Source of the DNA: Polynucleobacter sp. AP-Ainpum-60-G11
GTDB lineage: Bacteria; Pseudomonadota; Gammaproteobacteria; Burkholderiales; Burkholderiaceae
DNA length: 64,000 nucleotides
NCBI RefSeq assembly: GCF_018688375.1
Contig: NZ_CP061318.1
Location: forward strand, 1,612,001-1,676,000
Direction of reading: 5' to 3'
Shown here: positions 3,128-60,306 of the stretch, in pieces
Position numbering within the stretch: position 1 is the stretch's first letter
Layout: each line of letters starts with the position of its first letter
The notes under the pieces: model-generated
Databases searched by the model: none
Told to the model about the DNA's origin: nothing
What the model saw: the letters and a program-made list of their open reading frames with translations, nothing else
Position numbers and translations under genes: made by a program

Positions 3128-6100
3128 ATGCTTCGAAACATCATCCGGACTCGCCTGCAGAGCGTGCTTCAAAAACGTCCTCCAGGATCTGGCGGTCGTT
3201 GGCGCAAGCGCGCCCTCATCCTTGCCGGCGTTACGGTGGCATTTTTTGTGCTTGGCCATCTTGGAGTGCGTTTTGTTTTGTGGCCTCAAATTGAGAAATC
3301 AAAACCCACCTTAGAGCGCTTAATGAGTGCTCGCTTAGGCACCAGCGTTACGATGGATGCGGTGCAAGTTTCGTGGACCGGAATTCGTCCCAGCTTTGCG
3401 ATTGAAGGACTGCGCTTTAACAACACAAACGCTGCTACTCCAGCCCTACTCATTAAAAATATCCAGGGGCAACTGAGCTGGCTATCTTTTTATCACCTGG
3501 CACCCTATTTTCACGAGATCACATTTGATCAGGTTCAGCTATACGCTCAACGAAATGCAAAAGGCGTAGTTACGATTGCCGGAATTCCGATTCATGGCAA
3601 TGCAGATAATTTTGCGACCGAAAACTGGCTGCTTGCTCAAAACGATATCCAAATTAACAATGCCACAATTTTTTGGGAAGACCAACAAAGTCGCAAGTTA
3701 AAAACTTCAATTGATATTCTCAGCCTGCAACTGAGTAATGGTATTCGTAGTCATGAAGGACGGCTAATCGCACAAACACCCTGGAGCCCAAAACCAATTA
3801 ACCTCCAAGCTGACTTTGTGCATCATCTTGCTGGGCAAGCAGGCGATTGGCGCGATTGGGTCGGAAATTTTTCATGGGACCTCGCAGAACTTAACCTCGA
3901 TCAAATTTCTCAAGACTTAAGTCTTCCGCTGTATGACCTAGGAGGTAAGCTCAACTCCAAGGCTAGTCTAAAGCTCGACGGCGGCAAGGCCAATGGCGGA
4001 CAAATGTCTTTAGCCGCCGACAATCTACGAGTTCAACTATTCAAAGGTGAGGATCCTGTTGAGTTAGGCAGACTAGAAACTAACCTAGTGCAAGAAACGG
4101 ATGGTGGACTCAATTCCATTACAACCAAAAATCTGGCCTGGCGCAATATTGACAGCCCGAAAACCGCTCCTCTTGAAAAAATAAGCCCAATTACTTTCCG
4201 TTGGCGTCCTCCAAAAGATGGTGGTGAGATCAAAGAGTTCGGCTTCTCCTCACCCAAAATACAAGTAGAAGATATTGCACTCTTCGCGCTCAACCTTCCT
4301 CTTCCAAAAAAGATTCATCAGTGGATCAAGATTTCTGAAGCGGATGGTGAATTGCAGAACTTGGAAATTAATTGGTCTGAGAGCCAATCTGCTTTATCAG
4401 CTTTACCTATTCCAGGGAATTGGTTCTCTGCTAACAAGCTTGATTTCACTATCAGCGCAAGACTCAATGACATTAGCTTTACAGGGGTCAACAAATCGAT
4501 GCCCTCAGCCTCGAATTTATCTGGCAACTTAGTTAGCAATCAGAAGCAAGGTAACTTCACGCTAGATTCAAGCAATCTTGAGTTGGAGATGTATGATTTT
4601 CTATCCGATCCCGAGATTCAATTAGACCGCGCAAAAGGCGATATCAATTGGTCAAAACAAAAAGGGGGGTGGCTGATCAATGCTAAAAAAATGCAGCTCA
4701 GTAACCCTGAAATCACTACCAATTTTGACCTAAGCTATTTCATCGGCGCAGCTCAGCAGCCTGACCAAATGACTCTAGATATGACGTTCGCTAAAGCCAA
4801 GTTAGCGACCGCACATCGCTACCTTCCAGTTGGGATGGATAAAGACAGCCGCCTGTACCTGAGCAAAGCTTTTGAATCCGGCGAGATTCAAAATGGTGTT
4901 TTGCACATTAAAGGGGATCCAAATCAGGCGCCTTACCCAAGCGGAACTCTTGGTGAACTTAGCCTGCACTTACCTTTCTCTAAGGCCAGCTTTAAGCCAG
5001 CACCCTTGCTTCCAAAAAGTCAGGGGGTTTGGCAAGCATTTAGCAATGTCAGCGGCAATATCGACATGAAGCAGTCCACCCTCATGATTGATGTTGATAA
5101 AGCAAGCTACAAGAAGGTAGCCCTTTCGAATGTCAAATCGCAAATTCCCAATCTCAGCGCTAAAAACTTGACCCTACTCATTGATGGCTCGGTTAATGGT
5201 GACGGATCTGAAATCCTGGAATATCTATTTACTTCTCCAGTAGGTGTGCAGCAAGCCAATCTAGCTAAAAATCTCACCTTAAAGGGTCCGGTTAGCGTAG
5301 GTCTTGATTTAAAGGTTCCGCTATCCGGAGTTGGTGATGTCAATTTCGATGCAAAAATTAACCTCCCCGGAAATCAAGCTCAATGGGGGCAAGCTCCCCC
5401 ATTAGACAATCTGCAGGGTAAGGTGCGGATTACCGAAGTCAACCCAGAGTTTGAAAATGTCACCGCAAACTTTTTGGGCGGAGCTTTGAAGATTGCTAGT
5501 GCGCCCTCCACCGCCGGCAACACCAGCTTTAGCATTAGCGGGGATATCAATGCTAGCTTTATCAAGGATTACATTTCGGGAAATTTAAAATCTCAAGCCC
5601 ATTCAGCATTACTGGCTGCGATGAGTGGCTCAGCTAAATATGAAGGCTTTATCAACTTTAATAAGGCGGGGAGTCAAACTAATCTGAAATTTGATTTACG
5701 AAATTGGGCGAGTTCAGCGCCTACGCCAGCTAAGAAAATAGCTGGAAGCCCCATGCTCGGCGAGCTCAACTTCAAAACTTACCCAGCAAGTAAAGGCAAT
5801 TTAGTTCGCGCTGATTGGTCTGGAAAATTGGGTGATCAGTATTTTCTGCAAGGAAACCTAAATTCCTCTAATGATGTAAAAAATGCATTGGGAGTGGGAT
5901 CTCCAACACCTTTGCCCCAACAAGGACTTTCTCTACATGTAGCAAGTAATGAGCTAGATCTCGATCAGTGGGTAGAATTTTTAGGCGCAGGCAAATCAAA
6001 AAATAAGGTGGGTGTCTCTAAAAATTTAGATACCTCTGATGAAGACATCCAAGTCTCTGCCCAAATAAAAAAATTAATTGCCTTTGATCGCGAATGGACT

Positions 6101-8159: not shown

Positions 8160-9650
8160 ATGAGAGCACCAGAAGCATTATTTCCGAGTGATTGGACTAA
8201 ACCCAAAAAACAGGCCGACCTTCTTAAGCTAGCTAAATCCATTCTGCTCGAGCCAACTGGCCTTTCTGAGCAAGATTTGCATCACACCTTCGGCAATATG
8301 TTTACGCACCAACTAGATGATGCTGACCTTTACTTCCAGCACACTCGTAGCGAAAGTTGGAGTCTTGAAGAAGGTATTGTGAAATCCGGTAGCTTCAGCA
8401 TTGATCAAGGCGTCGGCGTACGCGCGATTTATGGCGACAAAACTGCCTTTGCTTATTCAGATGAAATTAATCTAGAGGCATTAAATAAGGCGGCCAAATC
8501 CACTCGCGTAATTGGCCCCCAAGGCGGCACACGTGCCGTAGCGAGCAAAATTTTTACACCCGTTTCCAATGGGCTCTACTCAGACTTAAATCCCCTGGAT
8601 TCACTAGCGCCCCAAGAAAAGATCGCCTTGCTTGAAGGTATTGAGCGTCGTGCAAAAGCGCGTGATCCTCGGATTATTCAGGTTATGGCTAGCCTAGCTG
8701 GCGAGTTTGATGTGGTGCTTGTAGTTCGTGCGGATGGCTTACTAGCTGCTGACGTTCGTCCGTTGGTACGTGTATCAGTACATGTGATCGCCGAACAAAA
8801 TGGTCGTCGCGAATCTGGATCATCGGGCGGTGGTGCGCGCCATGATTACCACTACTTCAATACCGAACTCGTCAATCAATATGTTGATGAAGCAGTTGAT
8901 GGCGCACTGATTAATCTAGACTCTCGCCCCGCCCCCGCTGGCCCAATGACAGTAGTCATGGGCCCGGGATGGCCTGGAGTGTTGTTACACGAAGCGGTGG
9001 GTCATGGCCTTGAGGGCGACTTCAATCGCAAAGGTTCATCTGCTTTTGCTGGTTGCATTGGACAGCGTGTTGCAGCTAAGGGTGTCACCGTGGTCGACGA
9101 TGGCACACTTTCTGGTCGTCGCGGCTCACTCAATATTGATGATGAAGGTACGCCGACCCAGTGCACCACGCTGATTGAGGATGGTATTTTGAAGGGCTAT
9201 ATTCAAGATAGCTTGAATGCTCGTCTTATGAATATGCCTCTGACCGGAAATGGTCGACGCGAAAGCTTTGCATCTCTACCAATGCCTCGCATGACTAATA
9301 CCTATATGTTGGGCGGCAAAGATGATCCCCAAGAAATCGTGGCCAGCATTAAACGCGGCCTGTATGCAGTCAACTTTGGGGGCGGCCAAGTTGATATTAC
9401 TAGCGGCAAATTTGTGTTTTCAGCCTCAGAAGCCTATTGGGTAGAAAACGGCAAAATTCAATATCCAGTCAAAGGCGCAACCATTATTGGCAGTGGTCCA
9501 GAGTCCTTAAAACAGGTCTCCATGATCGGAAATGACCTGAAATTAGACGGCGGTATTGGGGTTTGTGGCAAAGAAGGTCAGAGCGTTCCGGTGGGCGTTG
9601 GACAGCCAACTTTACGTATCGATAGCCTAACTGTCGGAGGAACTGCTTAA
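8160..9650 (+). CDS. tldD: Metalloprotease TldD
   Basis: A 496-residue member of the TldD/PmbA (U62) family. The metal and catalytic motif HEAVGHGLEGD begins at H277, with E278 and H282 in the expected spacing. TldD works with TldE (PmbA) as a heterodimer that degrades unfolded peptides and processes some ribosomal peptides. The partner gene is not in this window. The protein lacks a signal peptide and should be cytoplasmic. It lies 24 bp after the amidase gene and 19 bp before the DAHP synthase gene. Confidence 0.96.
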   Translation: MRAPEALFPSDWTKPKKQADLLKLAKSILLEPTGLSEQDLHHTFGNMFTHQLDDADLYFQHTRSESWSLEEGIVKSGSFSIDQGVGVRAIYGDKTAFAYSDEINLEALNKAAKSTRVIGPQGGTRAVASKIFTPVSNGLYSDLNPLDSLAPQEKIALLEGIERRAKARDPRIIQVMASLAGEFDVVLVVRADGLLAADVRPLVRVSVHVIAEQNGRRESGSSGGGARHDYHYFNTELVNQYVDEAVDGALINLDSRPAPAGPMTVVMGPGWPGVLLHEAVGHGLEGDFNRKGSSAFAGCIGQRVAAKGVTVVDDGTLSGRRGSLNIDDEGTPTQCTTLIEDGILKGYIQDSLNARLMNMPLTGNGRRESFASLPMPRMTNTYMLGGKDDPQEIVASIKRGLYAVNFGGGQVDITSGKFVFSASEAYWVENGKIQYPVKGATIIGSGPESLKQVSMIGNDLKLDGGIGVCGKEGQSVPVGVGQPTLRIDSLTVGGTA

Positions 9651-31820: not shown

Positions 31821-33188
31821 ATGTCAAACATAACCGCGATTTCCTATCTCATTTCCTCGGTGCTGTTCATCCTCGCCTTGCGTGGATTGTCATCACCAAC
31901 AACATCACGTCAAGGCAATACCTTCGGCATGATCGGCATGTTGCTTGCTGTAATCACCACCTTCATGATTCCGGACTTCAAGCCCGTCTTCTCATTAATT
32001 ATTGGTGCGATTGTTGGCGGTGCCGTCATTGGAACCATTGCTGCTAAGCGTGTGCAGATGACGAAGATGCCTGAGCTCGTAGCACTCATGCACTCCTTTG
32101 TTGGCCTGTCAGCGGTATTGATCGCCATCGCAGCGGTTTACAACCCTGCTCATGACCATACTGGCGCACAAAAGATTGAGCTCTTTATTGGCGCATTTAT
32201 TGGCGCCATTACCTTTACCGCTTCCGTCATCGCTTTCGGAAAACTTTCAGGCAAGGTTAGTGGCAAGCCAGTGACATTTGCTGGGCAACATTTGCTGAAC
32301 CTCATCCTAGCAATTGGCATGGTTGGCGGCGGCGTCATGTACTTCATGACAGGTAGCCACGAAGCATTCTTAGCGATGTGCGCAATTGCATTGGTCTTAG
32401 GCGTGACATTGATCATCCCAATCGGCGGCGCAGATATGCCAGTCGTTGTGTCCATGCTGAACAGTTACTCTGGTTGGGCAGCGGCTGGTATTGGCTTCAC
32501 ATTAAACAACCCCGTATTGATTATTGCTGGTGCTTGCGTAGGATCTTCTGGTGCGATTCTGTCTTACATCATGTGTAAGGCTATGAACCGCTCTATCTTG
32601 GCGGTATTGCTTGGCGGCTTTGGCGCCGAAGCTTCTGCTGGTGGTGCCGATGATGGCGGTCCAAAGAACTACAAAACTGGCTCACCAGAAGATGCGGCTT
32701 TCCTGATGGAGAATGCTGACACGGTTGTGATTGTTCCTGGCTACGGTTTAGCTGTTGCCCGTGCCCAGCACGCTCTAAAAGAATTAACCGAGAAGCTCAC
32801 ACACCACGGTGTAACAGTGAAGTATGCGATTCACCCAGTAGCAGGCCGAATGCCTGGTCACATGAACGTACTCTTGGCTGAAGCTGAAGTTCCATACGAC
32901 CAAGTATTTGAAATGGAAGACATCAACAGCGACTTTGGTCAAGCTGACGTAGTACTAGTACTCGGCGCAAATGACGTGGTTAATCCTGCTGCTCGTACAC
33001 CAGGTAGCCCAATCTTTGGCATGCCAATTTTGGAAGCATTTAAAGCAAAAACCATTATCGTGAACAAGCGCTCTATGGCTGCAGGTTATGCCGGGCTTGA
33101 TAACGAACTCTTCTATATGGACAAAACCATGATGGTCTTCGGCGATGCGAAGAAGGTTGTTGAAGATATGGTGAAGTCAGTTTCTTAA
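31821..33188 (+). CDS. pntB: NAD(P) transhydrogenase subunit beta
   Basis: Membrane domain II plus NADP(H)-binding domain III, 455 residues. About nine hydrophobic segments fill the first 270 residues; the soluble domain follows with VIVPGYGLAVARAQHAL, HPVAGRMPGHMNVLLAEA and VLGANDVVNPAA. The enzyme couples proton entry to NADPH production. The operon ends with a strong intrinsic terminator at 33216-33238. Confidence 0.96.
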   Translation: MSNITAISYLISSVLFILALRGLSSPTTSRQGNTFGMIGMLLAVITTFMIPDFKPVFSLIIGAIVGGAVIGTIAAKRVQMTKMPELVALMHSFVGLSAVLIAIAAVYNPAHDHTGAQKIELFIGAFIGAITFTASVIAFGKLSGKVSGKPVTFAGQHLLNLILAIGMVGGGVMYFMTGSHEAFLAMCAIALVLGVTLIIPIGGADMPVVVSMLNSYSGWAAAGIGFTLNNPVLIIAGACVGSSGAILSYIMCKAMNRSILAVLLGGFGAEASAGGADDGGPKNYKTGSPEDAAFLMENADTVVIVPGYGLAVARAQHALKELTEKLTHHGVTVKYAIHPVAGRMPGHMNVLLAEAEVPYDQVFEMEDINSDFGQADVVLVLGANDVVNPAARTPGSPIFGMPILEAFKAKTIIVNKRSMAAGYAGLDNELFYMDKTMMVFGDAKKVVEDMVKSVS

Positions 33189-53902: not shown

Positions 53903-54379
53903 ATGAACAAACTAACTCATTTTGATGCCAGCGGCCAAGCCCATATGGTCAACGTTGGAGACAAGCCCAATACCCATCGGATTGCCATTGCTACAGGCAG
54001 AATCACCATGCTACCCGAGACTTTCAGCATGATTGAGGCAGGCACCCATAAAAAAGGCGATGTTCTGGAAATTGCCCGAATTGCCGGTATTCAAGCATCG
54101 AAAAAAACATCAGATTTAATTCCCCTTTGTCACCCATTAGCGCTGACGCACGTCAGCCTCGAATTTTCTCTCAATAAAGATAGCAGCAGCATTTCCTGCC
54201 AAGTCAGAGCTGAAACTACCGGCCCCACTGGTGTAGAAATGGAAGCCCTCACCGCAGTTCAGGTTGCCTTACTCACAATCTACGATATGGCGAAAGCGGT
54301 TGATAGAGGCATGGTGATGGGCGATGTCCACCTGCTAGAGAAGAGTGGCGGCAAAAGTGGGGAATGGAAGGCGGCCTAG
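53903..54379 (+). CDS. moaC: Cyclic pyranopterin monophosphate synthase MoaC
   Basis: Molybdenum cofactor synthesis, converting 3',8-cyclo-GTP to c[21 protein letters not shown] at the start, [13 protein letters not shown] and [24 protein letters not shown], with the catalytic Asp and Lys, are all present. The 158-residue protein is full length, but its last 40 codons (54248 onward) are the copy at the left end of an integrated element. It ends GEWKAA, whereas the copy at 60106-60230 ends GEWKA. Integration therefore left a working gene. No terminator follows; the integrase gene begins 74 bp later on the same strand. Confidence 0.96.
54248..54372 (+). repeat. attL: left 125 bp direct repeat inside the moaC 3' end
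   Basis: The 125 bases starting CTCACCGCAGTTCAGG and ending GGAATGGAAGGC occur again at 60106-60230 in the same orientation with a single difference (C at 54310, T at 60168). A shorter, more diverged copy is at 57512-57614. This is the pattern left by site-specific integration into the 3' end of a gene. The exact crossover point inside the repeat cannot be read. Confidence 0.9.
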
Positions 54380-54423
54380 TAGTCACTAACTCACTCCGAC
54401 AATGACAAACAACTAAATCCTTC

Positions 54424-54441
54424 TTGCTCGTCCCTTGCTCG
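54424..54441 (+). repeat. Paired TTGCTCG heptamers next to attL (candidate recombinase arm site)
   Basis: TTGCTCG at 54424-54430 and again at 54435-54441, 11 bp apart, about one helical turn. Similar pairs occur near the other two junctions (57437-57453, 59983-60000). A role in integrase or excisionase binding is inference. Confidence 0.5.
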
Positions 54442-54453
54442 AGTGAGGGATGT

Positions 54454-55437
54454 ATGGCAACAATCAGATTGCATGGCAAGAAGTGGCAAGCTAGGGTTTA
54501 TAAAAAAGGTTATCCAACTGCAATACGCTCATTCTTAGTCCGCAAGGATGCCGAGAAGTGGGCTAGACAAATAGAAGCTGACATGGATAAGGGGAGCTAT
54601 ATCAACAGCATCTTGTCCGAGAAAACTACCTTTGGTGAACTTATAGAGAGATATCTTAGGGAAGTCACGCCACTGATGCGTGGAGCCAAGGCAGACTCGA
54701 TTCGCCTCAAAGCAATCATGAGAAAGCCGATTGCCAAAGAGAATATGGCAACTCTGACATCAAGCAAGATTGCCAAGTATCGAGATGAGCGATTAACTGA
54801 GATTGCACCCAGCACAGTAGTGAGAGAGTTAGCTTACTTTTCATCCATCATTAATCACGCTCGTAGGGAATGGGGAATCAATACACCCAACCCTGTACTC
54901 TCAGTAAGAAAACCAACCCAACCCCAGGGAAGAAGTCGTGTGCTCTCATTTGATGAGGAACGACTGCTTCTTCAAGCCTGCGAACCTAAAGCAAATCGAA
55001 ACATCTACACCCGTCCTTTTGTCATCCTTGCAATTGAAACCGCAATGCGTAGAGGAGAAATATTAAGTCTTCGTTGGGAGAATATTGATTACTCAAAACG
55101 TACGGCCTTTCTGCAATTAACCAAGAACGGAGAATCTCGAACCGTACCACTATCTACAAGAGCCATAGAAACTCTACAAGCCCTCCCCATGAGTATTGAT
55201 GGCCGAGTATTCACTATTAACTTTGCAGCCCTAGAAACCAACTTTAAACGAGCTATAAAGCGAGCAGGGTTACTTGACTTGCGTATACATGACCTACGGC
55301 ATACAGCGGCCACCCGCCTTTCTGAAAAGCTACCCAACCTACTTGAATTAAGTGCGGTTACAGGACATAAAAATTTATCGATGCTCAAAAGGTATTACCA
55401 TCCAAATCCACAAGAATTAGCGAAGAAAATTGCTTAA
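54454..55437 (+). CDS. Tyrosine recombinase / integrase
   Basis: A 327-residue site-specific recombinase. Catalytic residues visible: R199 in ETAMRRGEILSLRW, H279 and R282 in HDLRHTAATRL, H305 in VTGHKNLSM and Y314 (or Y315) in LKRYYHP. The N-terminal part has an AP2-like or arm-binding strand region (ATIRLHGKKWQARVYKKGYP) and a core-binding domain from about residue 60. The frame opens 30 bp earlier, but ATG 54454 has AGTGAGGG upstream and a family-like start. It lies beside attL and is read in the same direction as moaC, so it is the likely enzyme for the moaC att sites. Confidence 0.92.
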   Translation: MATIRLHGKKWQARVYKKGYPTAIRSFLVRKDAEKWARQIEADMDKGSYINSILSEKTTFGELIERYLREVTPLMRGAKADSIRLKAIMRKPIAKENMATLTSSKIAKYRDERLTEIAPSTVVRELAYFSSIINHARREWGINTPNPVLSVRKPTQPQGRSRVLSFDEERLLLQACEPKANRNIYTRPFVILAIETAMRRGEILSLRWENIDYSKRTAFLQLTKNGESRTVPLSTRAIETLQALPMSIDGRVFTINFAALETNFKRAIKRAGLLDLRIHDLRHTAATRLSEKLPNLLELSAVTGHKNLSMLKRYYHPNPQELAKKIA

Positions 55438-55700
55438 AAATAACACATACATTTCAAAGATTTATGTTCGTCTTTCACAAAAGTATTTTGTAATTTCTTA
55501 CAAATAAATTTATATATAGATATAAAAATTTAGATAAATATTTATTTAATTTTAAGTATTGTGTTTTGTATTTCAGGTCTGTAGGATGTTAAGTGTAGGT
55601 TGAGGCTATCAATACCAATAAACCTTCATGAGGAAAAAATTTGGTCTTATCAGCAATGCAGCGGATAAGTATTTTTTGTTTTCCTTATGGAGATTTTGCA
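55438..55700. other. AT-rich intergenic region with palindromes before the HUH protein gene
   Basis: These 263 bp are strongly AT-rich. They contain the inverted repeat TTTATAT-ATAG-ATATAAA (55509-55526) and the perfect palindrome ATAAATATTTAT (55534-55545). Given the rolling-circle-like gene directly downstream, this is a candidate replication or nicking region; that is inference only. I see no convincing gene here. Confidence 0.4.
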
Positions 55701-56189
55701 ATGAGTTTATTGGTCAGCACAAAACACGATAGACCCGAAGATTGGCGTGGACAACAACAGCTAATTGAATATCTAACCTCGTTAGGTCAACTAACCCATT
55801 CAATTACAATTAGCCTAAAGCCAGTCTATCTTCGCTCCCATATCTGGGAAAGATATGAATATGAAAAAGCTGCAATCTATTTCGTAAGAAGGCTTAATAG
55901 CCTCTTTTTTGGCAAGAAATTTAATCGTAGGAAAAAAGCTCTTCCTTTAATCACCAGCTTTGAAGCCAAGCGTGACTTTGAAAATCCTCATCTACACATT
56001 GCTGTTGGCTGCCCAGAGAGCTCTAGTAACGAAGAATTTGAGAGAGCAATACGAGATGCTCATAGAAAAGTAAGGCTATTTAATCAACAAATACATATAC
56101 AACCATATCGCTCTTCTGGTTGGATTGGGTATTTGAGTAAAGAAGGGCAAGATTCACTAGTTTTAAGTTGCTGTTATAGCGGTAAGTAG
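55701..56189 (+). CDS. HUH-motif replication-initiator-like protein (inovirus Gp2-like)
   Basis: A 162-residue protein. Motif H97-L-H99 in ENPHLHIAVG is an HUH metal site flanked by hydrophobic residues, and Y144-L-S-K147 in IGYLSKEG matches the YxxK nicking motif of rolling-circle initiators, in the expected order and about 45 residues apart. The overall pattern is like the YagK/YfjJ or inovirus Gp2 proteins, but shorter than most. I chose ATG 55701 (GGAG upstream) over an earlier ATG at 55641. It lies in element A, 263 bp after the integrase. Function is inferred from motifs; no search was possible. Confidence 0.65.
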   Translation: MSLLVSTKHDRPEDWRGQQQLIEYLTSLGQLTHSITISLKPVYLRSHIWERYEYEKAAIYFVRRLNSLFFGKKFNRRKKALPLITSFEAKRDFENPHLHIAVGCPESSSNEEFERAIRDAHRKVRLFNQQIHIQPYRSSGWIGYLSKEGQDSLVLSCCYSGK

Positions 56190-56465
56190 GTTTTCATCCA
56201 GGCAGGTGATTACTGAGCAGTAGATAGGTATCCATGTGATTGCCTTGTTTACTCCATTCCCAAACAGAATGTATCAACTATGCCTCCACTCATTACCTTA
56301 TACATACCTACTTGAGTCTTATCTCCTACCTCTACTAGTGTTATTACTCTGTATGTATGATGCTCTGAGATTATTTGTATAAGTCTTATTTCGGCCGCTT
56401 GATACAGTCCAATATACTGAACGATAACTAATTAAAAAATAGAACCATACAGCCAAGGAATGAAG
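56190..56465. other. Intergenic stretch of element A without a supported gene
   Basis: 276 bp between the HUH gene and the first lipoprotein gene. It contains no open frame of note and no terminator with a clear U-tract. TATACTGAACGATAACTA near 56411 could include a promoter for the lipoprotein gene but lacks a good -35 box. Confidence 0.4.
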
Positions 56466-56885
56466 ATGAACGCTAAGCTAGTTTTTGCAACTTTATTTTT
56501 TACGCTATTTATCACCGCTTGCTCAGATGACAGCACATATCTCAGCTGTCAAATTGAGGGGAAAACCGACTACCTTAATGAAACATTTAGAGAAATTCAA
56601 TTTATTTCAATAACAAAAGGCCCTGTCAGCGACCTGCTTGAATTTAGTAACCCAGGAAAATTTCCGCCCTCACTAGGGATAACAACGACACCAGAACAAT
56701 ACTTTGGGGCGGCCCATAATTATGGGGAATACAAGAAAATTACTTATGATGAATTCTTTAGGTTAAATATTAATCGAAAAACTGGTGCACTAATAGCTAT
56801 ACAGACTGTTAAGTATGCCGATGGATTTCAAGATGGATTTACCGCTTCTGGCAATTGCGAACGAACTAAGAAGAGACAACTTTAA
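56466..56885 (+). CDS. Putative lipoprotein, unknown function (element A cargo)
   Basis: A 139-residue protein with a lipoprotein signal: a hydrophobic stretch LVFATLFFTLF then ITAC with the lipid cysteine C19. I do not recognise the mature part; it has two or three further cysteines (SCQIEGK, GNCERTKK) and many aromatic residues. The second ATG (56466) was chosen because AAGGA lies six bases before it; ATG 56460 is too close. It ends 4 bp into the convergent lipoprotein gene. AT-rich relative to flanking core genes. Confidence 0.7.
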   Translation: MNAKLVFATLFFTLFITACSDDSTYLSCQIEGKTDYLNETFREIQFISITKGPVSDLLEFSNPGKFPPSLGITTTPEQYFGAAHNYGEYKKITYDEFFRLNINRKTGALIAIQTVKYADGFQDGFTASGNCERTKKRQL

Positions 56886-57268
56886 CTCCTATCATATGCC
56901 TTGCAGTCGTTTCCTTTATATTCATAGCTTATTACAACTTTATTCTCAATTTTAAAAATTGTTGTGCAAGCATTTGTATATCCAATTGAGGGTGTGCCAC
57001 CCACTAAAGTCGTATAAGCCTTACCATTGATATAAGTTGTATTGGCTCTGGGTTGCTGACCAGGAATAACGCCTGATTCTGAGCGTGAATAAGTTAAATA
57101 CCGAATGCCTTCATTCTCATAACTACCCTGAGGGATGCCCCATACTGCGACAAGCTCCTTTTCTGTTTTGCCGATAGTTGTTTTTAGTATCTTTTCGTAG
57201 TTAGCTGTAGTGGCACAGCCAACCAATAAAGCAACAAAAGCAAATAAAGAAAATTTTATATTTGTCAT
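56882..57268 (-). CDS. Putative lipoprotein with BamE/SmpA-like domain
   Basis: A 128-residue protein. The signal ends in ALLVGC with the lipid cysteine at C18. The mature part KTTIGKTEKELVAVWGIPQG followed by YLTYSRS and CTTIFKIENKVVISYEYKGNDC resembles the small BamE/OmlA fold (helix pair then strands) seen in many lipoproteins. No specific role can be stated. It overlaps the neighbouring lipoprotein gene end to end by 4 bp. Confidence 0.7.
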   Translation of the reverse strand: MTNIKFSLFAFVALLVGCATTANYEKILKTTIGKTEKELVAVWGIPQGSYENEGIRYLTYSRSESGVIPGQQPRANTTYINGKAYTTLVGGTPSIGYTNACTTIFKIENKVVISYEYKGNDCKAYDRS

Positions 57269-57436
57269 GTTTAGATATTAATGACTCACATTTCGAATAT
57301 TAGATAATCTATCACGATGAAATTTCCTAAAGCGGAAAAATTTAGAAGCAACTAAAGCACTCATTTATTTATATTACTTTCTATGAGTTTCCCCCCCTAC
57401 CCCCTATAAACCTTATTTCAATTTGACCTTGAACTT

Positions 57437-57453
57437 TTGCTCGACTCTTGCTC
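57437..57453 (+). repeat. Paired TTGCTC heptamers next to the internal att site
   Basis: TTGCTCG at 57437-57443 and TTGCTC at 57448-57453, again 11 bp apart, 58 bp before the internal moaC copy. Same layout as at 54424-54441. A 7 bp inverted repeat CTTAACT / AGTTAAG (57466-57472 and 57489-57495) lies between it and the att copy. Confidence 0.5.
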
Positions 57454-57511
57454 TAATTAAACCTTCTTAACTGGGATAGATGTAAGAAAGTTAAGTTGTA
57501 AGTCATTGATT

Positions 57512-57614
57512 TCACCGCAGTTCAAGTTACCTTACTCACCATCTACGATATGGCGAAAGCGGTTGATAGAGGCATGGTGATGGGCGATATTCACCTGCTA
57601 GAGAAGAGTGGCGG
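57512..57614 (+). repeat. Internal att: diverged moaC 3'-end copy between elements A and B
   Basis: About 103 bp matching 54250-54352 with five differences, starting TCACCGCAGTTCAAG. It matches the other copies until GAGAAGAGTGGCGG and then diverges, so it lacks the final GKSGEWKA codons. Its position between two gene sets, flanked on both sides by the near-identical copies, points to a tandem of two insertions. Confidence 0.85.
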
Positions 57615-57984
57615 GAAGATACGTTGTCGGCGCTGTAAAGCCCAATCATCCAGAACAAAACTACAGTGCTCTAAACCAGCTTTAAAAGGCAAGGCGGCAT
57701 GTCAATTTCATGGTGGATTGAGTACTGGTCCAAAAAGTAAAGAAGGTAAAGGCCGTATTCGAGCTACACACTTCAAGCATGGTGAAGAAACTGTAGAAGC
57801 CAAAGCCGAGCGCAACGCAAAGAGTCTGATGTTCCGATACCTGACAGACATAGGTAACCACTGTGATATGTTCTACAAGCAAATTAAGGCACGGGGCCGA
57901 CCCCCTTCGGGATATATACAGCTAGACCTAGCAGACCCAGAACAATTAGCTATGGCGGTACTTAAAACACAGTTAGGCAAATAA
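57550..57984 (+). CDS. Cysteine-rich HGG..GP protein, frame fused to a moaC tail copy
   Basis: A 144-codon frame whose first 24 codons ([23 protein letters not shown]) are the moaC C-terminal sequence carried by the internal att site. The rest is a different protein: two CxxC-like pairs ([26 protein letters not shown]) and [16 protein letters not shown], a pattern I know from short phage and island proteins of unknown function. Real translation could start at one of the in-frame ATGs in the att copy, or, if element B were alone in moaC, as a C-terminal extension of MoaC. It converges on the TPR gene with 28 bp between. Confidence 0.6.
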
Positions 57985-58012
57985 CCAAGCTAAGCGGCAA
58001 AGGATGTGCACA

Positions 58013-59791
58013 CTACAAAATCTTAGTACCGCTTAAATCTGATTTCATCTTATCCAATACGCTATTCCAATCACCAATAGAGGTTTGTCTATAGAGCTTC
58101 ATAGCTGAATACCACGGACTATCGTCTCTATCTAAAAGCCACCTCCAATCTGGCACATAAGGCAGCAGTAATAATGTTTTCTTTCCAAGAGCTCCGCCTA
58201 AATGTGCCACGCTTGTATCTACACTAATGACCAAATCTAAGTTATCAATTAATGCAGCGGTATCAAGAAAATCATGTAAATAACTAGCAAAATTTAGAAT
58301 GTGGGGATTTGAGTCAAGCGTTAATTTATCAATTTCTCGAACTTCTTTTTGTAGGCTCACATATTCAAATTGATTGGGAAGAAATGGAAGAATATCCCTC
58401 AATAATATGCTGCGGTTATGGTCATTTTTATGGCGTGGATTTCCACTCCAAACCAAACCAACTCGTGGCTTTAACTTTGAGCCCAGTTTTGCCTTCCAAT
58501 TGATGATTTTATTGGGGTAGTTATCGAGGTTGATATATCGACTCGGATTCGGAATAGTATCTAGATTGGTTTTACATGCCAACGGAAGGCTTAAGAGTGG
58601 GCATTGATAATCAAAGAATGGCAATTCTTCACCCTCAATGACCAATTCTGAAACACCTTCTAAATTCCCCAGCAAACCGGCAAGAGCCTGAGGAGTTTCC
58701 AAAATAACTTTTGCACCTAAATCTGAAACTAGTTTTACATATCGACAGAATTGAATAAAATCACCTAACCCCTGCTCCCCATAAATCAAGATTGTTTTAC
58801 CCGCAAGAGAATCAACCCCAAGCCAAGTCGGCTTGTCAAAAATGCGCTTACCTGCGCTTTCACTAACCTTCTCTGAAACCCATCGGCTCTCATAAAGCGG
58901 TAAGCCGCTCTCAAAACAACCCTGCAAGAGTAGTGTGAGGCTTTTATTCCAAGAAGCCTCGTGATAATTAGGATTCAGGCTAAGCGCCTTATCGTAGTGG
59001 TCTATAGCTTCATCAAAGCGCTTAAGTTCATTTAATACATTACCCTTATTGGACCAGGCCTCTGCATAGTCAGGTTTTAGGCTCAGCGCCTTATCGTAGT
59101 GAGCAATTGCCTCTTCATAATGCTTGAGTTTGTTTAATACATTGCCCTTATTGGACCAAGCTTCGGCAAATTCAGGGGCGAGATTTAATGCATTATCATA
59201 GTGAGTAATTGCATCTTTATAGCGTTTTAATTCATACAAGCTCATCCCTTTATTGGACCAAGCTCCAGCAAATTCAGGGTCGAGGCTTAACGCTTTATCG
59301 AAGTGAGCAATAGCATCGTCATAACATCTAAGTTCATTTAATATATCGCCCTTATTGGACCAAGCTCCAGCAAATTCAGGGTCGAGGCTTAACGCTTTAT
59401 CGTAGTGAGCAATAGCATCATCATAACGCTTTAGGCACTGGAGTGACTTACCACAACCAAGCCAAACCTTATGATTATTGGGGGATAAAAAAATCGCTTT
59501 TTCGTGATACTTTAATGAATCTGAATGCCTTCCAATCGCCTGTAGTGCTTTAGCACAATTAATATTTACTTCTAAATCATCAGGTTTAATTTTTAGAGCT
59601 CTTAATGAATAATTAAAAGCTTCCTGGTGATTATTTTCAATTCCACAAATAAATCCCATTGCATGTAAAGCATCAAAATTTTTTGGCTGTATCTTTAGAA
59701 TATACTCAAAAAGGGGTTTAGCTCGGCCAAAGTTTGCCTTCTGAGTGTATGTAAAAGCTTGTTGAATAATTGATTGTAGTTGGGTGCTCAT
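58013..59791 (-). CDS. TPR protein with glycosyltransferase-like C-terminal domain
   Basis: A 592-residue protein. Residues about 1-300 are tetratricopeptide repeats of 34 residues with consensus YDDAIAHYDKALSLDPEFA..WSNKG. From about residue 330 comes a GT9/GT41-like domain: KTILIYGEQGLGDFIQFCRY, RVGLVWSGNPRHKND, SVDTSVAHLGGALGKKTLLL and PYVPDWRWLLDRDDSPWY. Similar proteins are common in freshwater Burkholderiaceae and are thought to glycosylate or bind surface components; the substrate is unknown. Neighbouring repeats are nearly identical in DNA (102 bp period), showing recent amplification. It is the main cargo of element B. Confidence 0.85.
   Translation of the reverse strand: MSTQLQSIIQQAFTYTQKANFGRAKPLFEYILKIQPKNFDALHAMGFICGIENNHQEAFNYSLRALKIKPDDLEVNINCAKALQAIGRHSDSLKYHEKAIFLSPNNHKVWLGCGKSLQCLKRYDDAIAHYDKALSLDPEFAGAWSNKGDILNELRCYDDAIAHFDKALSLDPEFAGAWSNKGMSLYELKRYKDAITHYDNALNLAPEFAEAWSNKGNVLNKLKHYEEAIAHYDKALSLKPDYAEAWSNKGNVLNELKRFDEAIDHYDKALSLNPNYHEASWNKSLTLLLQGCFESGLPLYESRWVSEKVSESAGKRIFDKPTWLGVDSLAGKTILIYGEQGLGDFIQFCRYVKLVSDLGAKVILETPQALAGLLGNLEGVSELVIEGEELPFFDYQCPLLSLPLACKTNLDTIPNPSRYINLDNYPNKIINWKAKLGSKLKPRVGLVWSGNPRHKNDHNRSILLRDILPFLPNQFEYVSLQKEVREIDKLTLDSNPHILNFASYLHDFLDTAALIDNLDLVISVDTSVAHLGGALGKKTLLLLPYVPDWRWLLDRDDSPWYSAMKLYRQTSIGDWNSVLDKMKSDLSGTKIL
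59206..59450 (-). repeat. 102 bp tandem DNA repeats in the TPR gene
   Basis: The block beginning TATTGGACCAAGCTCCAGC at 59251 recurs at 59353, exactly 102 bp (34 codons) later, with only a few differences over about 90 bp. Less similar units continue on both sides (towards 59045 and 59149). Confidence 0.85.
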
Positions 59792-60105
59792 GCCACTATT
59801 CTATAGGTAAAGATTAGTCTATAAAGTAATAAAAAATAGCTGGTCGGCTGTGCAAAATAAGGTGAAGAGTCTACCTATATGGGACCCTTTTTAAAAAATG
59901 GAGGAGTGGGTATGGTGGGGTCAATTTCTAGAGAATCGACCGAGGCACTCCCGCTTTATCTAGTATGCGCATGGATTCGGTCTTGCACGACTCTTGTGCT
60001 ATTCTTTTTTGTGGCCTAACACTGTCCTTATTGGCCTAACTTTTAACCCGATGGGTTTAGGTTTAGTTGTTTTAGTTTTTCTTAGTTCGTTGTTTTTACT
60101 GGGCT
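59792..60105. other. Right-end non-coding region of element B
   Basis: 314 bp between the TPR gene start and attR, within a gene-free stretch reaching the pilin gene (59792-60306) that also holds attR and the probable moaC terminator. It has a direct repeat TGGCCTAAC at 60012-60020 and 60032-60040 (20 bp apart, two helical turns), the inverted repeat AACCC-GAT-GGGTT (60045-60057), and the heptamer pair listed separately. This layout suits a protein-binding end region of a mobile element. The TPR gene promoter should be near 59800-59850, but I cannot define it. Confidence 0.5.
59983..60000 (+). repeat. Paired TTGCACG / TTGTGCT heptamers near attR
   Basis: TTGCACG at 59983-59989 and TTGTGCT at 59994-60000, with the same 11 bp step and the same spacer start (ACTC) as the pair at 57437-57453, 105 bp before attR. 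More diverged than the other two pairs. Confidence 0.4.
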
Positions 60106-60230
60106 CTCACCGCAGTTCAGGTTGCCTTACTCACAATCTACGATATGGCGAAAGCGGTTGATAGAGGTATGGTGATGGGCGATGTCCACCTGCTAGAGAA
60201 GAGTGGCGGCAAAAGTGGGGAATGGAAGGC
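60106..60230 (+). repeat. attR: right 125 bp direct repeat, holding the displaced original moaC end
   Basis: Matches 54248-54372 with one difference. It continues into codons for GEWKA and TAA, which I take to be the original end of moaC, followed 30 bp later by a strong terminator. The frame is cut off from any moaC start, so it is not translated as MoaC. Confidence 0.9.
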
Positions 60231-60260: not shown

Positions 60261-60282
60261 TAAGCCACCCAAGGGTGGCTTA
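60261..60282 (+). terminator. Probable original moaC terminator, now beyond attR
   Basis: TAAGCCACCC-AA-GGGTGGCTTA: a perfect 10 bp stem followed by ATTTGTTTT on the plus strand. It also lies 25 bp after the pilin stop on the other strand, where the sequence following the stem is not T-rich, so it fits better as the terminator of a plus-strand gene, i.e. moaC before the insertion. Confidence 0.75.
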
Positions 60283-60306
60283 ATTTGTTTTGAGGCTAGA
60301 AATTCT

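Follow-up and report, generated by a model that had tools for sequence, protein, structure and literature searches.

Why does a genome with one full moaC gene carry the end of that gene three times, and what is the DNA that lies between the copies? We addressed this question in a window of 64,000 nucleotides from Polynucleobacter sp. AP-Ainpum-60-G11 (contig NZ_CP061318.1, positions 1,612,001 to 1,676,000 of the forward strand), which is the stretch referred to by all coordinates below unless a genome is named. A first-pass annotation of this window had interpreted the locus as two integrative elements in tandem at the 3' end of moaC, here called A and B. Our analysis supports this interpretation: insertion differences at moaC exist among related genomes, and no intact paralogue accounts for the copies. 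Very probably, two integrative elements of different descent were inserted successively in moaC, B being the older one and now a remnant, and A being the younger one with an integrase.

Copies of the moaC end and occupation of the site across the genus

The gene, the three tail copies with the left and right attachment sites (attL and attR) assigned to them, and the 20-bp core that they share are located as follows.

53903..54379, + strand: moaC (cyclic pyranopterin monophosphate synthase), intact (TIGR00581/PRK09364; Pfam MoaC, E 5e-57; repeat map); its codons from the core onward are probably element-borne
54248..54372, + strand: left moaC tail copy, attL of element A; 5' arm from the host, 3' arm from element A (repeat map; crossover from an ectopic insertion)
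54284..54303, + strand: core GATATGGCGAAAGCGGTTGA, left copy, with the putative crossover TATGG at 54286-54290
57512..57617, + strand: middle moaC tail, serving as attR of A and as attL of B; the 5' arm derives from A, and the 3' arm derives from B and is truncated at GGK
57547..57566, + strand: core GATATGGCGAAAGCGGTTGA, middle copy, intact
60106..60230, + strand: right moaC tail copy, attR; 5' arm from B, 3' arm the native host moaC end
60142..60161, + strand: core GATATGGCGAAAGCGGTTGA, right copy, intact
60262..60293, + strand: terminator-like hairpin of native moaC, displaced from moaC by the insertions; a like hairpin lies directly behind moaC in aligned empty relatives

As annotated before, the last 125 bp of moaC recur at 60106-60230 with one mismatch to 54248-54372 (C at 54310, T at 60168), and between the left copy and the middle one (57512-57614), 5 of 103 positions differ. 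Tail identity stops at the last moaC codons (AAGGC), beyond which the copies diverge. Repeats of such length are not a product of chance. The sizes of 3.1 and 2.5 kb given earlier for the two elements are correct if measured between the repeats; from core to core, A comprises 3263 bp and B 2595 bp. The G+C content is 38.5% in A and 40.2% in B, compared to 46.6% in the window.

Three copies of a gene end could in principle be the trace of a segmental duplication or of a degraded moaC paralogue. However, only the tail is copied, and the whole genome (1,906,556 bp) contains three moaC tails and one full moaC. Since a protein search of the genome found no second moaC, a paralogue cannot explain the tails. 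Moreover, integrases lie behind moaC in the closest relatives, and paralogy or segmental duplication is refuted by the existence of empty sites, which leaves this explanation with a negligible probability. Behind the right tail of the window come the hairpin and then a pilin gene, the same arrangement as in 6 aligned empty relatives. Because these two features stand behind it as they do in empty relatives, the 3' part of the right tail is the old moaC end, with the island lying in between.

The comparison of moaC downstream regions proposed in the first-pass annotation revealed both empty sites and single insertions. The moaC tail was matched in 161 of 186 genomes of the genus, and at least 31 of the 186 (this one included) have two or more tail matches; as at most four candidates were scored per genome, second copies are a lower bound. 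From part of the 160 other tail-positive genomes, 98 loci with a usable moaC match were drawn, of which one (L122) was afterwards removed and one (L060) corrected by hand. The pilin gene was in reach at 91 moaC loci, and 37 of these are empty, with 33-172 bp between moaC and the pilin gene; the gap measures 200-1000 bp at 10 others and is longer at 44. At 12 of the 98 loci, moaC is immediately followed by an intact related integrase. A second moaC tail follows 3.4-11.3 kb downstream in 11 of these 12, while the contig ends first in the twelfth, and it precedes the pilin gene in all 10 integrase loci where that gene is in reach. Altogether, a second tail was listed at 23 loci, some of these tails being short or weak. 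Among 10 scanned proteins from second-tail intervals, matches include AlpA, a DnaG-type zinc ribbon, AAA_25, PriCT_2, a D5-type domain and Mob_Pre; two of the 10 had no family match.

The moaC-pilin interval is a hotspot throughout the genus (for example L034, L038, L066, L069, L111 and L130). Its cargo includes TPR/glycosyltransferase-like, acyltransferase-like (judged by eye) and other genes, possibly accessory genes for pilin modification.

The crossover and the descent of the two elements

The crossover can be placed with the help of an ectopic insertion. Genome G017 has an empty moaC site (79 bp to the pilin gene), and elsewhere in it lies an element whose integrase is 79% identical. The left junction of this element reads ...CTGTG/TATGG/CTAAAGC and continues with the moaC tail through the stop codon, meaning that this element itself carries sequence that completes the target gene; its right junction leads from moaC ...CTACGA/TATGG/TTGATG into foreign sequence. 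The outer flanks of the element form one open frame, the homologue of which is whole in G020 (80% identity) and in two pieces in G017 (homologue matched in 6 of 186 genomes). Because the moaC identity in G017 starts and ends at TATGG, strand exchange most plausibly takes place in this motif, inside the Asp-Met codons of moaC, and the attachment site of the element (attP) carries moaC sequence on both sides of the crossover. The three cores in the window are identical, with zero mismatches. Genome-wide, the core pattern finds the three moaC copies without a mismatch, and the next match (2 mismatches) is not in pntB, a gene to which we return below; the total is 20 matches compared to 12 for the reversed pattern, with 3-mismatch matches near the control level.

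These data suggest the following history. Tyrosine integrases would act on the core GATATGGCGAAAGCGGTTGA inside moaC, with TATGG as the crossover. The 3' part of attP would reach the stop codon, and the host tail would be swapped for the element tail; moaC would stay whole because the element tail runs to the stop codon. The older element B would descend from an integrase-bearing lineage and would later have lost the stretch between the moaC tail and a gene for an HGGxSTG-domain protein by a join at a shared GGK. The younger element A would then have entered at the left core and retained its integrase. Because all three cores are identical, the integrase of A should be able to excise A, B or both together. 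The features of the two elements that bear on their integration and content are listed here.

54424..54441, + strand: pair of candidate arm-type sites for the integrase, both reading TTGCTCG and 11 bp apart (from sequence)
54454..55437, + strand: tyrosine integrase of A, 327 amino acids (Phage_integrase, E 1e-28; Int_N domain)
57437..57453, + strand: pair of candidate arm-type sites near the right attachment site of A, reading TTGCTCG and TTGCTC and 11 bp apart
57550..57984, + strand: HGGxSTG-domain gene (NF041373, E 2e-11), natural 5' end replaced by moaC tail codons
57609..57622, + strand: junction in B, where the moaC tail (..GGK) continues in frame into ..GGKIRCRRC of the HGGxSTG gene
58013..59791, - strand: TPR protein, 592 amino acids, with a glycosyltransferase-9 match under the Pfam cut-off
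59992..60104, + strand: right end of B, matching the right ends of integrase-bearing elements of G090 and G146

The integrase of A had been described as complete and as starting just inside the left copy. It is indeed intact, but its start lies 82 bp past the end of that copy. An intact tyrosine recombinase adjoining one end is found in A only. Residues R199, K224, H279, R282, H305, Y314 and Y315, which we take to be catalytic, are invariant among 15 aligned integrases. Pairs of the TTGTCCAA type, 11 bp apart, are present at element ends in many relatives.

Element B has no integrase, as noted at the outset, and had been suggested either to depend on A or to be a remnant. We favour the remnant, because B combines the right end of complete elements with a deletion-type junction within the HGGxSTG gene. 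Full-length homologues of this gene start with MIx or similar and have 12 extra N-terminal residues before the same GGK; a structure model of the protein (mean predicted local distance difference test score of 52) was not used. In several elements, of moaC and other types, an HGGxSTG gene is found 1-4 kb downstream of the integrase. The right end of B reaches scores of 159 and 147 when compared with the corresponding ends of two integrase-bearing elements, and shuffled sequences do not exceed 36; these elements, in G090 and G146, are complete ones of two related species. As far as sequence comparison goes, B is thus best read as the remnant of a different element lineage than A.

Dependence on A is conceivable, as both cores of B are intact, and B might be a functional non-autonomous element that is moved in trans by A-like integrases. 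Such elements would fit the 12 of 23 listed second-tail loci that lack an intact related integrase, although several of these tails are short or weak and one locus (L049) contains integrase fragments. The deletion-type junction within a gene and the right end shared with integrase-bearing elements argue against this, as do other decayed HGGxSTG ends behind moaC tails (L041, L049), which look like repeated decay. In addition, the listed intervals contain no non-autonomous unit of conserved structure. We consider this explanation unlikely, at roughly one chance in five.

Exchange of genes next to the pilin gene is known from pilin accessory islands. The TPR gene and the right tail could accordingly have arrived by homologous exchange of pilin-neighbour genes, which would leave A as the only truly integrative element. 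No other cluster is found as often between moaC and the pilin gene across the genus as the one to which the TPR protein of B belongs: counting the window, 19 of 59 filled intervals contain it, with 30 genes in total, each in the orientation of the pilin gene. Apart from the window, all 18 of these intervals lack an intact related integrase. Nevertheless, the right end of B and an HGGxSTG gene belong to integrase-bearing elements, and a moaC tail lies between the TPR gene and the pilin gene, which plain exchange of flanks would not create. This scenario appears still somewhat less probable than movement of B in trans.

Several observations weigh against the successive insertion of two elements as laid out here. 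B is a patchwork, its HGGxSTG protein being nearer to those of G180 and G125 (71 and 68%) than to those of G090 and G146. The right end of A has no clear match among the fetched elements (best score 31, shuffle maximum 30), and the lone tail mismatch in the window is insufficient by itself to place the crossover. That A arrived after B is deduced from the mosaic of arms and from the position of the integrase beside moaC in relatives, and the join in B may have formed either before or after the arrival of A. Finally, the site comparison spans species rather than pairs of strains, and no polymorphism within a species was seen.

The remaining genes of A are the following.

55701..56189, + strand: small protein with invariant H97-x-H99 and Y144-L-S-K
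56460..56885, + strand: hypothetical protein with a lipoprotein-like N-terminus (by eye), cargo
56882..57268, - strand: hypothetical protein, phrog_3716-like, with a lipoprotein-like N-terminus (by eye), cargo

The first of these may, with low confidence, have an HUH-endonuclease-like fold, and we can only guess at a role in replication or mobilisation; a PDB sequence search with this protein gave no match. It is the sole candidate mobilisation gene in A, while Mob_Pre occurs in the element of a relative (L075). Regarding satellite modules, no AlpA or primase-type family match was found in A or B; AlpA and AAA_25 genes occur in related elements.

Two related loci show more complex arrangements. 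L041 (G071, 108-122 kb) carries, at about 6.7-12.2 kb and reversed, several TPR genes with a decayed moaC tail before each; these units are far from moaC, and a decayed HGGxSTG end is present twice. The tail-bearing units of this locus were copied or moved as a block. The 11.5-kb moaC element of L051 (G125) has two HGGxSTG genes (4881-5300 and 8730-9149) with identical protein sequence, between which lie transposase-like genes (by eye) and a D5-type gene; it probably represents two merged elements.

The integrase family, a second target and host-matched arms

Target use follows integrase relatedness. Counted as distinct proteins and with the window integrase included, all 19 integrases at identities of at least 59% lie directly downstream of a moaC tail; among these, the tail of G017 is carried by the element, and two are at contig edges with part of the tail. 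At 50-59% identity (n = 28), 11 are associated with moaC, 16 with pntB and one with neither. At 40-50% (n = 36), four have moaC, one has pntB and 31 have neither, nine of the latter adjoining a tRNA gene, and below 40% none of 40 has moaC or pntB. In the scan of genome contigs (best 80 of 468 loci), moaC-type integrases were recorded from Methylotenera, Limnohabitans, Comamonas, Ottowia, Roseateles, Thiomonas, Ramlibacter and Formivibrio, and from one record named Chitinophaga, a label that we doubt. Among the best 80 of 380 loci on viral contigs, the best identity was 48%, and no moaC or pntB was detected, several of these contigs beginning at the integrase with the upstream side unseen. The best identities among the matches listed were 39.8% for annotated phages and 46.5% for plasmids.

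A tree of 106 rows, which left out identical rows, fragments below 300 amino acids and rows below 36% identity without a recognised target, unites 33 moaC rows, 17 pntB rows and one other in one clade (94/94). The pntB rows form one nested clade (98/96), the moaC label needs three changes, and the branch uniting pntB with the nearest moaC rows has values of 88/95. Because the pntB users are a single clade nested among moaC users, moaC looks like the ancestral target and the change to pntB like a single event. Within the moaC/pntB clade, the integrase of L226 (a Rhodocyclales metagenome-assembled genome) has neither gene upstream.

The two targets share a core. At equivalent positions relative to the integrase, the consensus is GAYATGGTSAARGCNGTNGA for pntB and GAYATGKSNAARGCNGYNGA for moaC; cores were found by pattern at 33 of 37 moaC-labelled and 20 of 21 pntB-labelled loci, so that pattern-fixed positions are constant by construction. 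Compared with the moaC consensus, the 20 pntB cores agree at 10-17 of 20 positions, with 17 cores reaching 14 or more. In a ranking of 1356 gene ends, drawn from the window and 77 loci, five moaC and four pntB ends fill the first nine places, followed by one end at 14/20 and others at no more than 13/20; since the loci were fetched because of their integrase, both genes are over-represented, and it is the rank that matters. The pntB end of the window (33165-33184, GATATGGTGAAGTCAGTTTC; region 33165-33188) has 3 mismatches to a slightly wider pattern, and no insertion lies behind it. This is a poor match, and support for a shared core comes from the family-wide core comparison and from the gene-end ranking.

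We also compared the arms of the attachment sites. In the 12 integrase loci with both tails (window included), the 3' arm of the element agrees with that of its own host at a median of 100% over 72 nt, compared to 76% between hosts of different species. For the 5' arm, the medians are 91% and 82%; a single fixed register served for all arm comparisons, the ranking included, and these 5' values extend beyond the start of some repeats. The own host ranks first, ties included, in 10 of 12 cases per arm (among 94 hosts for the 5' and 59 for the 3' arm), the exceptions being L050 for both arms, L044 for the 5' and L106 for the 3' arm. Eight loci of other genera show lower agreement (3' arm 76-100%). 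Arms that stay with an element should resemble its donor, but a match to the own host was observed instead. We propose that arms are matched to the host through gene conversion between tails, and put this forward as a proposal because movement within a species would give the same pattern.

A broader account, to which we give about even chances, is that an integrase lineage, largely betaproteobacterial, has become fixed on a single codon run of 20 bp common to two unrelated metabolic genes (Asp-Met-x-Lys-Ala-Val in MoaC and PntB). In this account, moaC would be the ancestral target with one change to pntB via the shared core, and both attP arms would be re-tailored to the host moaC once the element has arrived, probably through gene conversion between the two tails; a foreign element would thereby soon cease to alter the host protein. 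The system offers what looks like a natural case of an integrase changing its target gene: the two targets share a core, the tree gives the direction, and an ectopic insertion places the crossover. It also reveals a genus-wide hotspot between moaC and the pilin gene. It directs attention to integrases that have defined sites in conserved genes, and the host-matched arms bear on how islands avoid damaging the gene that they enter.

Other possible targets were seen around the family. Three integrases on viral contigs of IMG/VR (L304, L305 and L306; 45-48% identity) lie behind the apparent first codons of a ferredoxin-like gene (MAL.ITDDCIN or MAL.ITDECIN, by eye), perhaps another coding-gene target, at the 5' end. 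The genome of the window has a second, distant integrase (30% identity; G000:C1:825430-826437, L199), which adjoins tRNA-Arg (TCT), as is likewise the case in several relatives.

Comparison with known systems

A coding target with a long target duplication had been called unusual. This is less rare than implied: the parts of the literature consulted describe attP replacement sequences with identity blocks up to about 250 bp and icd as an example (PMC10111431), and in one database 56.6% of islands are at tRNA, tmRNA or intergenic sites, with many others in coding genes (PMC12884075). An integrase island with a gene-restoring attP and tandem accretion is an already known type. By comparison, no account of moaC as an integrase target, of a change to pntB or of host-matched arms turned up in the literature searched, a weak absence since it covered open-licence papers only; the sections consulted of work on Polynucleobacter genomic islands (PMC10872708) do not mention moaC.

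Among the prophages at icd in E. coli is e14. The icd prophages and islands of E. coli, as far as described in the sections consulted (61icd, PMC10111431), resemble the present elements in an integrase site well inside a coding gene, an attP replacement end and long identity between attL and attR, the likeness being drawn from description, integrases aside. They differ in the gene and in involving a 50-kb prophage with a nested satellite, whereas the elements here are a few kb long. Judging from excerpts of the same source, the integrase clade of phage-inducible chromosomal islands at fis and late genes likewise includes one clade at several coding-gene targets and tandems with internal att sites (PMC10111431); those islands are phage satellites tied to helper prophages, and neither A nor B showed a comparable link. 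The dusA-associated integrases, according to the part of the report considered (PMC4482086), share with our family a single coding-gene target across many proteobacteria, replacement of part of the gene and mosaic cargo. They differ in using the 5' end of dusA, 21-bp repeats and islands of 42.6 kb on average, and the target here, moaC, sets A and B outside that family. In SGI1, the available passages (PMC2297512) describe insertion at the 3' end of a coding gene (thdF/trmE), tandem arrays at that gene and a secondary site, as here; in the same passages, the 5' end of pntB is named as a secondary site of SXT. SGI1 differs from the moaC elements in its 18-bp repeat and in tandem copies of one island after conjugation, whereas the tandem at moaC combines two lineages.

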